IMG/VR virus record: IMGVR_UViG_3300049460_000157
Location: 1 to 64,000 of that record
Length of the DNA stretch: 64,000 nt
Strand: one strand, 5' to 3'
From: a virus
The notes beneath the pieces are model-generated. The model was not told the origin of the DNA and ran no database searches. It saw only the letters and a program-made list of their open reading frames with translations. This document shows positions 7,903 to 57,301 of this stretch, piece after piece (the first letter of the stretch is position 1; each line of letters opens with the position of its first letter). The position numbers and the translations under genes are program-made.

Positions 7903-7949
7903 GAGCCAGGGAGAAGAGGAACTGCGTGAATTCCTCTTCTGCCTGGTTC
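7903..7949. other. Long stem-loop downstream of the capsid gene
   Basis: AGAAGAGGAA at 7912-7921 and its exact complement at 7931-7940 flank a 9-nt loop. Outside a single G-G mismatch, GAGCCAGG (7903) pairs with CCTGGTTC (7942), giving 18 pairs in total. There is no T-run on either side, so this looks like an mRNA-processing or stability hairpin rather than a standard terminator. The outer arms are copies of the dispersed GRRCCARGG motif. Confidence 0.75.
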
Positions 7950-42257: not shown

Positions 42258-42275
42258 CTAGACATAACTTGTAGG
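42258..42275 (+). promoter_or_regulatory. CTAGACATAACTTGTAGG promoter motif
   Basis: Member of the recurring 18-mer family, immediately downstream of the sigma70 -10 box. The RNA locus may thus be served by both host and phage polymerase. Confidence 0.55.
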
Positions 42276-42484
42276 TCAAAAGTTGATGGATAGCTGGCAG
42301 CGCTTTAGCTGACGCCGCTGGAGACAAGGCTGGGCCTCAACGCCGAAGGCAGAGGTGAATGCGCTGCGGCGCACATCAGTCCACTGTTAACGCGGAACAA
42401 ATCGGATTCGACCGAGTTGTTAGAGCGCTGCCAGATATCCATATCCCCTGAAGGGCGAAGATCGAAAGGTCTTCGCCCTTTTCC
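42264..42484 (+). ncRNA. Structured noncoding RNA with 19-position closing helix
   Basis: 42286-42304 pairs with 42424-42442 over 19 positions with one mismatch (ATGGATA and CTGGCAGCGCT arms). Inside: a 10-bp helix with a 4-nt bulge (CTGACGCCGC at 42309-42318 with 42366-42379) capped by CCTC...GAGG and GCC-GAA-GGC, and a second stem AACAA-A-TCGG-ATTCGA-CCGA-G-TTGTT at about 42397-42420. This is a three-way junction. Promoter before, terminator after, no convincing ORF within. Not recognised as tRNA, RNase P or tmRNA; a 6S-like role cannot be excluded. Confidence 0.8.
42451..42484 (+). terminator. Terminator of the noncoding RNA
   Basis: 13-pair stem 42451-42463 with 42468-42480 (one G-T pair), GAAA tetraloop, then TTTTCC. 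Confidence 0.92.
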
Positions 42485-42511
42485 ATTAGTAAACGGAGAG
42501 AGATTTAAGAC

Positions 42512-45746: not shown

Positions 45747-46220
45747 GTGCGTACGCAATTTCATCGATCGGTCAAACGGCCGGTCAAGCTGCCGGCGATC
45801 TTCCGGCACACACCAGACCAGGAACTGAGTCTCAAACTTATCCCGCACGGCCATCTTCAGGCCGTAGTGGACGGCCGCGGTACCGAAGAAGAGTTCCTGA
45901 CTGTCACCTTCCGGGTGATGGTCGGTGGCTCACTCACAGCATTCGCTGACGAAGCAGGCGAGAAAGCACTCGAAGGCGTCTATGTCGATGCACTCAAGGC
46001 ACTCGTTTCTGTGGGTGAACGCTACGAAAGACTCGGCAAGTTCGGCTGTAACGGCGATGAACTGAAGAGTCTGAAGGACGCAATCAACCTGACCGACGAT
46101 CTGCAGGAAGTCACCACCCGCCGACAGCAGGCGGAGATGTACAAACAGGTGATGGGCTTTGTCGGAGGCTTTGCTTTCACGATGAAGAACCTTCGCACAC
46201 TCGTGGGGAAGATGCAGTGA
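45747..46220 (+). CDS. 157-residue hypothetical protein, Burkholderiales-prophage type
   Basis: GTG 45747. TPDQELSLKLIPHGHLQAVV, EEFLTVTFRVMVGGSLTAFA, then helices LKDAINLTDDLQEVTTRRQQ. Sequence type common in Burkholderiales prophages and without known activity. Ends with a 4-nt overlap into a winged-helix gene. Confidence 0.65.
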   Translation: MRTQFHRSVKRPVKLPAIFRHTPDQELSLKLIPHGHLQAVVDGRGTEEEFLTVTFRVMVGGSLTAFADEAGEKALEGVYVDALKALVSVGERYERLGKFGCNGDELKSLKDAINLTDDLQEVTTRRQQAEMYKQVMGFVGGFAFTMKNLRTLVGKMQ

Positions 46221-46570
46221 CTACCTGTGAGCTGGTGCTGGAGCTTCTCGAGTTCGGGGAGATGACCGTGACCGAGTTGTTTGAGTCCCTTGGCTCCTTT
46301 CCCCGGTCGACCATCGGCAGTGCCGTGGAGAGACTGCATGAGCGCAACCTCATCCACGTCCACTGCTATGAGCGCACCCGTGTCGAGCCGGCACCCGTTT
46401 ACGCACTGGGCGCCGGCAGTGATGCCAGGAAGCCTCCGGCACGGACATCGACGCAGCGTTCCCGCAAGTACCGGGAGAAACACACCGCAGTGGTGCGGGC
46501 AAGACGGGCTGCACGGGATGACAGCAAGTTCCGCCATGTCATCCAGCTGTTGGCACACGTCACCGGTTAA
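46217..46570 (+). CDS. Winged-helix DNA-binding protein
   Basis: 117 residues. Residues 5-55 form an HTH: LVLELLEFGEMTVTELFESL, FPRSTIGSAVERLHERNLIH, then wing ERTRVEPAPVYALG. Residues 70-105 are strongly basic (QRSRKYREKHTAVVRARRAAR). Probably a transcription or replication modulator; related proteins are found in Burkholderia phages. Its stop is 2 bp before a promoter motif. Confidence 0.7.
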   Translation: MTTCELVLELLEFGEMTVTELFESLGSFPRSTIGSAVERLHERNLIHVHCYERTRVEPAPVYALGAGSDARKPPARTSTQRSRKYREKHTAVVRARRAARDDSKFRHVIQLLAHVTG

Positions 46571-46572
46571 CG

Positions 46573-46590
46573 TTAGAATCAAGTTTGTGG
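46573..46590 (+). promoter_or_regulatory. TTAGAATCAAGTTTGTGG promoter motif
   Basis: 14 of 18 positions match the 24535 copy. Directly precedes a 70-nt noncoding unit ending in a terminator. Confidence 0.5.
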
Positions 46591-46661
46591 GACGCTTCTG
46601 TAGATGCTGTCAACAGGAGCGGCGTGTTTAGGGGGGGTATGAAAATGCCTCCCCTCTTTTT
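46591..46661 (+). ncRNA. Small RNA 1 of a tandem pair, with terminator
   Basis: About 70 nt. Stem GCTTCTGT / ACAGGAGC (46594-46620, one G-T) then a terminator: AGGGGGGGTAT-GAAA-ATGCCTCCCCT (46630-46655) and CTTTTT. No ORF of note. It also ends the 42.5-46.57 kb operon. Confidence 0.65.
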
Positions 46662-46670
46662 CCCGGCTTG

Positions 46671-46688
46671 ATAGAGATATCTTTGTAG
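46671..46688 (+). promoter_or_regulatory. ATAGAGATATCTTTGTAG promoter motif
   Basis: Same 18-mer family; ten bases after the previous terminator's T-run and before a second noncoding unit. Confidence 0.6.
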
Positions 46689-46768
46689 TCTCTCAGCAGC
46701 TGGTCGGTTATCCCCCTCGGATGGCCAGCTGTTTCGGGGCAGGCACGGCAATGCCTGCCCCATTTTTT
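46689..46768 (+). ncRNA. Small RNA 2 of the tandem pair, with terminator
   Basis: About 80 nt. Stem CAGCTGG / CCAGCTG (46697-46731) with a 21-nt loop, then terminator GGGGCAGGCA / TGCCTGCCCC (46736-46761, 6-nt loop) and a T6 run. No ORF. The remaining 46769-46878 holds only the leader of the next gene (AGGAGG site at 46871). Confidence 0.7.
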
Positions 46769-46878
46769 CCAGTCTGTTTATCCAGGGGATCTGGGCGGCA
46801 AACCCGATCCGAAATTAGGATGCCGCCTGAAATTGGAAAGGGGTCCAGATCTCCGCGATAAGCTGATTAGGAGGACTA

Positions 46879-47181
46879 ATGCTGTCCGAGAAGAAATACC
46901 GCGAGGTCGTCGGTGAAATATGCCGAAACCATTTGCGGGACAACAACGACTTCATCCTCTCGCTGGCCATGAACGGTCTGGTGTTGCTGCCTGTGGAGAG
47001 CAATCCGACCACACCGTTCATGCACTACTGGCTAACACCCGATCCGATCTACGAGATTGGAACCAACGGGGAAGTGATCACACCCTGGGTGCAGAGCTGG
47101 ATCGCTGACTTTGACTGGCAAGAAAACAAACGGCCTGAAGCCGTATTCACGTTCACCCCACTGAACCCATTAGAGAGATAG
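46879..47181 (+). CDS. 100-residue protein upstream of rIIA
   Basis: ATG 46879 with AGGAGG. EKKYREVVGEICRNHLRDNN, PFMHYWLTPDPIYEIGTNGE, WIADFDWQENKRPEAVFTF. Unknown. Two base pairs before the rIIA-like start, so co-expressed with rIIAB. Confidence 0.65.
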   Translation: MLSEKKYREVVGEICRNHLRDNNDFILSLAMNGLVLLPVESNPTTPFMHYWLTPDPIYEIGTNGEVITPWVQSWIADFDWQENKRPEAVFTFTPLNPLER

Positions 47182-47183
47182 AC

Positions 47184-49661
47184 ATGCAAGTCGCAGACAT
47201 TCAAGGCGATGCCACCGCAGCCACGCTCGGTGCGCAGAAGACCACCGCAGTCGGTATGGTTGAAGATGCCGCATTCCTGATGATGCTGGCCACCAACCTG
47301 TACTCGAACCAGAAGCTGGCGTGCATCCGTGAAACGCTGTGCAACGCCTGGGATGCACACATCGAGGCGGGGCGCACCGATGTGCCGGTCAAGGTCACCA
47401 TTACCGACGAGTATGAGCTCGTCATCGAGGACAGCGGCAACGGTATTCCGGCCGAGGACTTCCCGATGGTCTACGGCACGATGGGCGGCTCGACCAAGAG
47501 CAAGAACGTGAAGGTGACCGGTGGCTTCGGCCTCGGTGCCAAGTCACCCTGGTCCTATGCGGATTCGTTCCGTGTGATCAATGAGAACCAGGGAACGAAG
47601 ACTATCTACAACCTGGTGCGCGCCAGCGTGGAAGCGGAGGGCAAGCCCGCCATCCAGCAGGTCATGCAGGTGCCGACTGAGCGCAGCGGACTCACCGTGC
47701 GCATCCAGCTGCAGCAGAAGGATGTCGAGCAGATGGCCGAATACATCCGGGCGGTCGTCATGCACGGCGACATGAACGTGCTGTTCAGTCGTCCAGGCGT
47801 CACGGAAACGCAGCTCGCCACGATGAACCTGTCGACCGAAGTCGGCAGCTACAGTGTGGCCGACAACTGGTACTTCCAGTACATGGGCAACCATTCGCTG
47901 TTCGTGCGCTACGGCGCCGTCATCTATCCGATGCTACAGACGCCGGGTACGCAGAAGGCGGTGGACCTGCTCAAGCAGTTCATGGAGCTCGTCGGCTTTC
48001 GCAAGATGGTCGTGCAGGCGGCACCGGGCACACTGGCACTGACACCGAACCGTGAAGCACTCTCGTCGAGCAAGATGACGGAGGACGGCATCACGGATCT
48101 GTGCGTGGCACTCGTGGCCCGCATCGAGGACGACCTGATCAAACAGATCCCTGGTTCGATAATGACCGCGGTGGCCAAACTGTCATCAGGCGAATCGTTC
48201 TATACCGGCCTGGACCAGTATGTCAACAGCACGGAGGCTATTGATCCATTACCGGTGCGACGGTATCTGGGTTCGCATCTCGGTGCAGCCACGCGTGCGA
48301 AGTATGAAAACCTGCTGGCAGCTGCTGAGCATCGGGGCTTCAAGACCAAGCACACCTTCACCAACAAGGCGGCGACCCGTGAGTATCACCGTCTGCGCCG
48401 GCGCCTCGTCGACAAACACTGGACGGCAAAGGAAGACCTGAAACACGCCTTCCTGAAGCACTACATCCTGCGGCCGCTTTCGCGTGTGTTCCAGAAACAC
48501 CCGGATCTGCTGAAGGTCAGCGAGTTCTTCCATGCCAAGCGTTTCTACTTTGACCGGCGCGAGAAGCATGAGCATTTGCTGAGCCGGGTCAGTGCAGACG
48601 AGTTCGGCAACCTGAAGCAGCTGGTAGACAACCCGACCGTGTTTGTCACTTCGCGCCTGAAGAATCTCGACGATAGCATCCAGTGCTGCCCGAGTGTCGT
48701 CCATGGTCAGGCTTCCTGGGTCTACCGGATCGCGCCGAAGGATGTGAACAAGGACGCCATCATCAAGGCATTCGAGGACGCTGGCTTTCAGGTCGTCGAT
48801 CTCACGCTCAACCATTCATGGGATAGCGTGGCCACCGAGCTGGAAATTGCCAAGCTGAACCGTGCAGCCAGTCGCCGGGCGCAGGCCGGGCAGCTCGATC
48901 TGGCGGTGGGCTCGAAGAAGAAAGCCAACCTGCTGATGTCGCTCACCAACGTCTATCACGACGACACAGGTGAGCGAAAGATGCACCAGAATCAGATCAA
49001 GCTAATGAAGTCAGTCACCGATACGACCGACACGCCGCGTTTCTACGTGACGGTGGAGGAGGTGACGAAGAACGGCAAGCTCGGCATGTTCGGCACCTAC
49101 CTGGATCTCACCGATGAGGAGCGCAAGCTCGGCGTCGTTGTGCGTACGGGTGTGGAAAAGAACATGGCACTGAAGCGCGGGGCTGTGCACGTCGACAGCT
49201 ATCTGGCGAAACGTCTGTGGGATCTCGTGCACACGAAGCAATACGCGGACTACTGCACGAAGCAGCGCAAGGCGGGACTATTCGACCACCACCACGTTCA
49301 GGAGACGCAATTAGAGCTGCTCGAGTACCTGGACATCAAGCTCCCCGGCTTCGACAAGCTCACGGAAAACGCAGCGTTCGACCGTGCTGCATCCCTCGTC
49401 GAAGGCATCAGCGCCACCTACTTTTCCTCTCTGGTTCCTGACCTGACGATGGAGCAGTTGCGGCATTACGCCGATGTGGTGCGTCGATACAAGCTCGACG
49501 AACTGCCGTGTGTGGTGAAGCTGAAGGCACTGAAGCAGGACCGGATTGCACAGGGACTGATCCAGAGCTGCAGCAACTTCACGGAGCTGGCCAAACAACA
49601 CCCGGAGCGTAAAGCCGCTCTCAAATCGCTCGTCATGGGCGCATTCAAAAACGGAAACTGA
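47184..49661 (+). CDS. rIIA: rIIA-like GHKL ATPase (N4 gp33-like)
   Basis: 825 residues. GHKL ATP-binding boxes: ETLCNAWDAHIEAG near 50 (N box), VIEDSGNGIPAEDF near 75 (G1), VTGGFGLGAKSPWSY near 105 (G2). The rest is long and helical as in rIIA proteins. T4 rIIA/rIIB protect against the RexAB exclusion system and sit at the membrane; N4-like phages carry the same pair. Confidence 0.9.
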   Translation: MQVADIQGDATAATLGAQKTTAVGMVEDAAFLMMLATNLYSNQKLACIRETLCNAWDAHIEAGRTDVPVKVTITDEYELVIEDSGNGIPAEDFPMVYGTMGGSTKSKNVKVTGGFGLGAKSPWSYADSFRVINENQGTKTIYNLVRASVEAEGKPAIQQVMQVPTERSGLTVRIQLQQKDVEQMAEYIRAVVMHGDMNVLFSRPGVTETQLATMNLSTEVGSYSVADNWYFQYMGNHSLFVRYGAVIYPMLQTPGTQKAVDLLKQFMELVGFRKMVVQAAPGTLALTPNREALSSSKMTEDGITDLCVALVARIEDDLIKQIPGSIMTAVAKLSSGESFYTGLDQYVNSTEAIDPLPVRRYLGSHLGAATRAKYENLLAAAEHRGFKTKHTFTNKAATREYHRLRRRLVDKHWTAKEDLKHAFLKHYILRPLSRVFQKHPDLLKVSEFFHAKRFYFDRREKHEHLLSRVSADEFGNLKQLVDNPTVFVTSRLKNLDDSIQCCPSVVHGQASWVYRIAPKDVNKDAIIKAFEDAGFQVVDLTLNHSWDSVATELEIAKLNRAASRRAQAGQLDLAVGSKKKANLLMSLTNVYHDDTGERKMHQNQIKLMKSVTDTTDTPRFYVTVEEVTKNGKLGMFGTYLDLTDEERKLGVVVRTGVEKNMALKRGAVHVDSYLAKRLWDLVHTKQYADYCTKQRKAGLFDHHHVQETQLELLEYLDIKLPGFDKLTENAAFDRAASLVEGISATYFSSLVPDLTMEQLRHYADVVRRYKLDELPCVVKLKALKQDRIAQGLIQSCSNFTELAKQHPERKAALKSLVMGAFKNGN

Positions 49662-51666: not shown

Positions 51667-51702
51667 AGCAACATAGCGGCGGGGCTTACAACTTCCTATA
51701 TA

Positions 51703-51735
51703 CCTCTAGTCAAGCTAGACTAGAGGTTATTTTTA
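51703..51735 (+). terminator. Terminator after rIIB
   Basis: CCTCTAGTC / GACTAGAGG with a 6-nt loop, then TTATTTTTA. The right arm and T-run also read CTAGAGGTTATTTTT, similar to the promoter 18-mer, so promoter and terminator may overlap as at 57235. Confidence 0.8.
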
Positions 51736-51749
51736 AGGGAGTTGTAACC

Positions 51750-57154: not shown

Positions 57155-57236
57155 TTGGTGGTTTGGTGGTACCCACTTTAAATCCTGCTTGAGAAGGCCT
57201 AGACACACCGGGCTTTCACAAGTACCATCCGTTTTT
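57155..57236 (+). ncRNA. Candidate small RNA between polymerase and gp40-like gene
   Basis: GGTGGTAC (57164-57171) pairs with GTACCATC (57222-57229, one G-T), followed by CGTTTTT. The interior has CTT-GAG-AAG. No ORF. Weaker than the 46.6-kb pair because the stem is 8 bp with a large loop. Confidence 0.45.
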
Positions 57237-57252
57237 AGATATAACTTTGTGG
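57235..57252 (+). promoter_or_regulatory. TTAGATATAACTTTGTGG promoter motif
   Basis: Closest to the family consensus; it begins in the T-run of the preceding unit and ends where a leader hairpin begins. Confidence 0.65.
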
Positions 57253-57275
57253 GGAAACAGACATTCTGTTTCCCC
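57251..57275 (+). other. Leader hairpin of the replication operon
   Basis: GGGGAAACAGA-CAT-TCTGTTTCCCC: 11 perfect pairs, 3-nt loop, directly after the promoter motif. Likely the 5' end of the mRNA; resembles the leader hairpin at 25333. Confidence 0.7.
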
Positions 57276-57301
57276 ATTCTTCCCTCTGCGGAGACAAGGC
57301 A

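Follow-up and report, generated by a model that had tools for sequence, protein, structure and literature searches.

Two candidate small-RNA genes before rIIA in an N4-like phage, one of them resembling the Burkholderiaceae sRNA ncS54

Does the short interval in front of the rIIA operon of this N4-like phage hold small-RNA genes, or is it spacer? An earlier note on this DNA had preferred a small-RNA locus, and we found that preference supported by the conservation of its first unit and by the ncS54 architecture, with both signature motifs, of its second. We read 46574-46768 as two independent small-RNA genes, with unit 2 an ncS54-type RNA that would act on host mRNAs, and give this reading a probability of about two in three. 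Coordinates are those of the window, the whole 64-kb stretch analysed, which is part of a 74,740-bp virus record. The features of the locus are as follows.

46217-46570: upstream ORF, whose stop codon is the 5' border of the interval
46574..46591, + strand: promoter 1, TAGAATCAAGTTTGTGGG, near-invariant in five phages
46588..46661, + strand: sRNA 1 (cassette 1), its exact 5' end predicted
46593-46621, + strand: 5' hairpin of sRNA 1, 9 bp
46630-46655, + strand: terminator of sRNA 1, 11 bp with a GAAA loop, followed by a T tract
46672..46689, + strand: promoter 2, TAGAGATATCTTTGTAGT, orthologous in four relatives
46686..46768, + strand: sRNA 2 (cassette 2), ncS54-like by the Rfam ncS54 model, a host-only model and motifs
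46687-46696, + strand: 5' motif of sRNA 2, AGTCTCTCAG
46695-46733, + strand: hairpin of sRNA 2, with CCCTCGGA at 46714-46721
46736-46768, + strand: terminator of sRNA 2, a 10-bp stem (46736-46761) and then ATTTTTT
46770..46868, + strand: pseudoknotted structured leader of the ORF-rIIA operon, by covariation and model matches
46879..47181, + strand: 100-aa ORF, the next gene 3' of the units
47184..49661, + strand: rIIA, with full-length tblastn matches to Schitoviridae rIIA

The interval contains two promoter-hairpin-terminator units, at 46574-46661 and 46672-46768, and its anatomy bears out the two cassettes that the earlier note had described. The 196-nt stretch folds at -93.6 kcal/mol compared with -64.5 for shuffled sequences (z -6.72; none of 200 shuffles did as well), and the single units have z values of -4.8 (unit 1) and -5.7 (unit 2). 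A terminator scan found two strong terminators in the interval (11 found in the surrounding region, 6.2 expected), and both the GAAA-loop terminator and the 10-bp terminator stem that had been noticed were located. Three other points of that note need amending: the cassettes do follow one another but are two different RNAs rather than copies; rIIA does lie behind them, but only after the 100-aa ORF; and the locus does not end at 46768, since conserved structure runs on to 46868. Each unit has what is expected of an intrinsically terminated sRNA gene, namely its own promoter and terminator, no ORF and a conserved structure. At the gathering threshold, Rfam gave no family across the whole window, and ARAGORN found no tRNAs.

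Over the full length of rIIA, identity between the window and the Schitoviridae of Erwinia, Enterobacter and Klebsiella reaches 46%; for DNA polymerase, the figure against Erwinia N4-like phages is about 62%. Three close relatives (L010, L012 and L013) have, by eye, a counterpart of the 100-aa ORF between promoter 2 and rIIA, and L001 has none; as sole query, this ORF found no relatives in IMG/VR.

Both units begin with a repeated motif. Allowing up to two mismatches, TAGANATAASTTTGNGG is found 41 times across five related phages (9 in the window's own record; 2, 9, 9 and 12 in four related records), the reversed pattern has none in any of the five, and many sites directly precede genes. The 18-mer that had been assigned to each unit is thus real, but promoter 1 departs from it at inner positions, with TAGAAT where the motif has TAGATA, and this deviation is the same in all five phages. 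TAGAAT is also a sigma-70 -10 box, and a hexamer starting TTG or TTC lies 18 bp upstream of it in four of the five. Hence, the host polymerase may also read promoter 1. The 17-nt core of promoter 1 is nearly identical among the five phages (one position is C or T), and the last base differs in one of them. Its exact pattern occurs in nine IMG/VR stretches, four of them beside rIIA; the five elsewhere were taken as chance, as was L006.

We infer that the phage's T7-like RNAPII uses the motif as its promoter. The likeness to the N4 RNAPII middle promoters is that phage promoters recur upstream of middle genes; the N4 promoter is described in the cited passages only as AT-rich and minimal, from -7 to +2 (PMC4496689), whereas the window's motif is longer and defined, and its assignment to RNAPII is putative.

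Several other elements of the window and its relatives G001-G004 carry this motif. At 42259-42485 (+), it overlaps a consensus sigma-70 promoter (TTGACA, 17 bp, AATAAT) and precedes an RNA of about 200 nt with a long 5'-3' closing stem and a terminator (z -7.05). Blocks of this RNA such as GCTGACGCCGCTGGAG and AACGCGGAACAAAT recur in G003, with partial likeness in G004, and no Rfam family matches it; it appears to be a large phage ncRNA that is conserved. At 57236-57277 and its equivalents in G001-G004, a promoter is followed immediately by a GGGGA...CCCC hairpin, a 5' mRNA leader hairpin whose sequence differs among the five phages and which pairs, by eye, in most. After rIIB, a palindrome at 51702-51738 consists of two facing promoter motifs (ACCTCTAGT...ACTAGAGGT), the same as in G001 (7903-7949), and paired facing sites occur in G002 (66495/66508), G003 (49006/49019) and G004 (10953/10966). 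On the minus strand at 23481-23420, an inverted repeat with a T run starts 16 nt downstream of the motif, and an equivalent-looking site in G004 (60439, minus strand) keeps a similar repeat.

Searching IMG/VR with an alignment of rIIA returned 40 loci. In four of them, L010, L012, L013 and L017, unit 1 immediately precedes the start of the ORF or rIIA; L017 and L001 are one contig (positions of unit 1: 3477 in L001, 2030 in L010, 2009 in L012 and 2054 in L013). A fifth close relative, L011, ends inside rIIA and is outside this count. Hence, unit 1 is at the same place in all five phages, that is, in the window and its four closest relatives whose upstream region is intact. The layout of sRNA 1 is a 5' hairpin, a U-containing linker, a GAAA-loop terminator and a U tract. 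The five phages have hairpins and terminators of unrelated sequence, and the pairing is kept in all (z -4.8, -4.9, -4.8, -2.5 and -4.5). The earlier note had proposed comparative folding, and had held that unrelated sequence in homologous phages would speak against a small-RNA locus; unit 1 is present in the four close relatives with its pairing kept, and all five copies form the 5' hairpin, linker and terminator. No conserved unpaired run in unit 1 is long enough to suggest an obvious seed, and unit 1 was not seen at those more distant rIIA loci whose upstream sequence was read. In phiAxp-3 and two IMG/VR phages (L044 and L045), a plain terminator stands at its place before rIIA. It is likely that an old terminator stood here first and that the promoter and 5' hairpin were added ahead of it.

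These plain terminators also fit another account, in which the two terminators only insulate or attenuate, halting transcripts that come from upstream and tuning read-through into the ORF-rIIA operon, and the short RNAs are by-products. Promoter 2 points the same way: it is present in all five phages and in the other four leads directly to ORF/rIIA, so that in the window a terminator now separates it from the operon it drives in its relatives. Insulation leaves unexplained, however, why five phages have a dedicated promoter and a covarying 5' hairpin before the terminator, and why unit 2 carries two ncS54 signature motifs and the Erwinia phages an RprA seed. It would also have to account for the spacing, which other motif sites lack: scanning the five phages with a weight matrix gave 72 motif sites, 10 with a terminator within 230 nt, and only six of the 72 have one at +39 to +50, namely the five unit 1 copies and unit 2. 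We consider insulation alone unlikely.

The hairpin and terminator of unit 2 are found only in the window and are missing from the four close relatives. Its closest likeness is to ncS54, Burkholderia sRNA 54, a 128-nt transcript induced 3.1-fold in biofilm; the passages of that source at hand mention neither a phage copy nor a target of ncS54 (PMC5688073). The Rfam ncS54 model (RF02871) matches 46686-46768 over its full length with 29.5 bits; the gathering score is 43, and by this cut-off unit 2 is not a formal member of the family. Some genomic ncS54 matches in Burkholderiaceae are also below 43 bits (for example 39.4, 38.4 and 31.9). Since the same model gives 23.4 bits to the copy of unit 1 in G003, which lacks the motifs, and matches 7 of 14 control genomes weakly (E<=1), its score reflects in part a generic two-hairpin shape. 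Therefore, the family members were inspected and a host-only model (R2) was built from 14 Burkholderiaceae host sequences, with the window excluded.

With R2, unit 2 matches positions 1-76 of 76 at 37.7 bits (E 2.1e-6 over 644 kb). Elsewhere in the N4-like phages the highest score is 12.5 bits, for the motif-less unit 1 of G003, leaving aside L199 and L204, which were themselves fetched by motif. Unit 2 has the 5' GUCUCUCAG and the apical-loop CCCUCGGA exactly and in order (46688-46721), a pair that occurs once in the window and in none of 100 shuffles. Its stem, CAGCTGG/CCAGCTG, differs from the ncS54 stems of hosts, and only paired positions differ; in the window's lowest-energy fold, the CCCTCGGA loop is partly paired.

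The same pattern of constancy and change is seen in the host family. A covariance-model search of 60 genomes from the family of G007, a genome behind a Burkholderia cenocepacia locus, found ncS54 in 17 (E<=1e-6). The 5' GTCTCTCAG and the apical-loop CCCTCGGA are kept while the stems vary; of the 25 aligned host rows, 22 have CCTCGGA and 20 have CTCTCAG, some of these rows coming from genomes first found by a pattern that contains CAGTCTCTC and does not contain the loop motif. The loop motif is CCCTCGGA in 38 of the 40 matches of that pattern. Stem pairs of the ncS54 type covary, with two-sided change in 69 cells of a 28-row alignment compared with 18.6 in shuffles, a figure that leans towards the model because the alignment was fitted to it.

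Might the likeness be convergent, a two-hairpin shape with chance motifs, so that neither unit has a counterpart in the host and both are phage-specific sRNAs? Unit 2 is sub-threshold in Rfam and known from one phage only, and the Rfam model's scores for a motif-less cassette and for control genomes suit this idea. The host-only model, however, lowers the motif-less cassette far more than unit 2, and both motifs stand in order and register with differences confined to paired positions. We regard convergence as quite improbable. Very probably, unit 2 is derived from ncS54 or imitates it, in a remodelled form. What it shares with ncS54 is the 5' motif, a first hairpin with the apical-loop motif, a short U-containing linker and a GC terminator with a U tract; it differs in being phage-borne, with a phage promoter, a replaced stem and terminator sequence and a longer loop.

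Other candidates were less telling. Sub-threshold Rfam matches to BjrC80, BjrC68, NrsZ, DicF and CRISPR-DR52 were taken as shape matches. With blastn (E<=0.01) against 274 genomes of G007's class, unit 1 matched two genomes and unit 2 six, and the RprA positive control gave only one weak match; those of the matches L162-L168 that were read lack sRNA architecture and resemble chance. In a duplex test for targets in the phage itself, the phage's own start regions were not enriched over those of foreign phage, and complements of the two unit 2 motifs (7-9 nt) in its own start regions gave nothing convincing.

A pattern for the motif pair retrieved six stretches from IMG/VR, of which L204 has the stem and terminator, L199 the stem only, and the remaining four are unlike the ncS54 family. 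An R2 search scored the ncS54-type sequences of L204 (1226-1303) and L199 (1204-1277) at 47.9 and 41.6 bits, respectively. The phage of L204 has a RecT-like gene, and its ncS54-type sequence comes just behind a stop codon.

A host-sRNA seed is also found at this locus in Erwinia phages. Of the eight Erwinia N4-like phages inspected, six (Ea9-2, Tellus, Rexella, Frozen, phiEaP8 and Fifi051) have TTGCTGTGTGTAGT here with a terminator behind it, and two (Fifi067 and Kuerle) do not show this arrangement. A 46-nt piece is 87-89% identical to annotated E. coli rprA among the rows listed, with matches in 5374 of 5426 genomes, and the Tellus piece scores 47.3 bits with Rfam RprA (RF00034, gathering score 70). 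phiEaP8 and Fifi051 retain the seed and have another terminator. Like the window's units, these RprA-type RNAs stand before rIIA and the pseudoknotted leader and follow the same principle of a host-sRNA seed and then a terminator; the window's sRNA family is different, and the RprA seed GCUGUGUGUAGUC is absent from 46574-46768.

Upstream of the RprA seed, L097 (1274-1330) and L095 (1262-1325) have a variable hairpin domain that shares CCTCGCAG and closes with GGGGG/CACCCC, and that is missing from Ea9-2 and Tellus. Of 35 records with a match, six from other phage groups were read, and all six have the RprA seed followed by a hairpin and a T tract (L155, L156, L157, L158, L159 and L161; the phages are Escherichia LLS, Eeyore and 606R2, Erwinia jumbo SNUABM_1, Stenotrophomonas BUCT708 and Serratia OS31). 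RprA-type RNAs may be widespread in phages.

The leader behind the units, composed of P0, P1, P2 and a CCC/GGG pseudoknot, is common to the window and the Erwinia N4-like phages. In an alignment of four lineages (A4: the window, Johnsonvirus, Yonginvirus and phiEaP8/Fifi051), 94.4% of cells are paired, 20 cells have two-sided change and 10 pairs are two-sided; 0 of 500 shuffles had as high a covariation score, and the pseudoknot is backed by one-sided changes only. With model R1, the sense-strand leader was found only before rIIA in the A4 phages (46770-46868 in the window, 5879-5973 in L004, 914-1011 in L091 and 1378-1472 in L095), and nowhere in G001-G004. Rfam gave no match to the leader, which is possibly a riboswitch-like or mRNA-protecting element.

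A role at the DNA level was also weighed. In T7, tandem promoters serve as a replication origin or source of primer RNA, and here too tandem phage-polymerase promoters stand with strong inverted repeats. There is, however, no skew switch, and cumulative GC skew has neither its maximum nor its minimum here; the hairpin sequences vary with pairing kept, as expected of RNA, and an origin would leave the RprA and ncS54 signatures unexplained. We judge an origin or primer source very improbable.

Returning to two small-RNA genes, the mechanism we propose builds on what was computed: the anatomy of the locus, a unit 1 that is conserved and covaries, a unit 2 that matches the ncS54 family, and the RprA seeds at this locus in Erwinia N4-like phages. 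Each sRNA would be read from a TAGATATAAsTTTGaGG-type phage promoter, both probably by phage RNAPII, and its intrinsic terminator would end the transcript after about 75-80 nt. As the clade's own RNA, sRNA 1 would be compact and stable through its 5' hairpin near the transcript start and its terminator. In sRNA 2, the 5'-terminal GUCUCUCAG and the apical-loop CCCUCGGA appear to have been kept and the stem and terminator rebuilt with other sequence. During infection of what is presumably a Burkholderiaceae host, sRNA 2 may pair through both motifs with host mRNAs normally under ncS54, and as an extra dose of host ncS54 or a competitor to it would shift host post-transcriptional control, putatively to the benefit of the phage.

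Phage-encoded sRNAs are known mostly from prophages. AgvB, a prophage RNA, mimics mRNA targets and thereby titrates GcvB (PMC12197685); it and the window's units are alike as phage-encoded small RNAs acting in trans (proposed for the window), whereas the RNA of this N4-like phage would mimic the host sRNA itself. The passages of this 2025 review of phage sRNAs at hand include no host-sRNA mimic (PMC12197685), and a literature search, which covered neither subscription papers nor preprints, found no case of a phage-encoded RprA or host-sRNA mimic.

The best reading of the locus is an sRNA site that accepts host-type sRNAs. More tentatively, and with slightly less than even confidence, we suggest that the pre-rIIA interval in this N4-like branch is a small-RNA docking site, where phages have installed seeds of host-lineage sRNAs before an old terminator (RprA in Erwinia phages, ncS54 in this predicted Burkholderiaceae phage) and so take over a host sRNA regulon in lytic infection. 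If so, lytic-type phages would carry remodelled host sRNAs at a fixed address and achieve post-transcriptional takeover by sRNA mimicry, their hosts would be predictable from sRNA signatures, and the phage RNA would offer a handle on the targets of ncS54.
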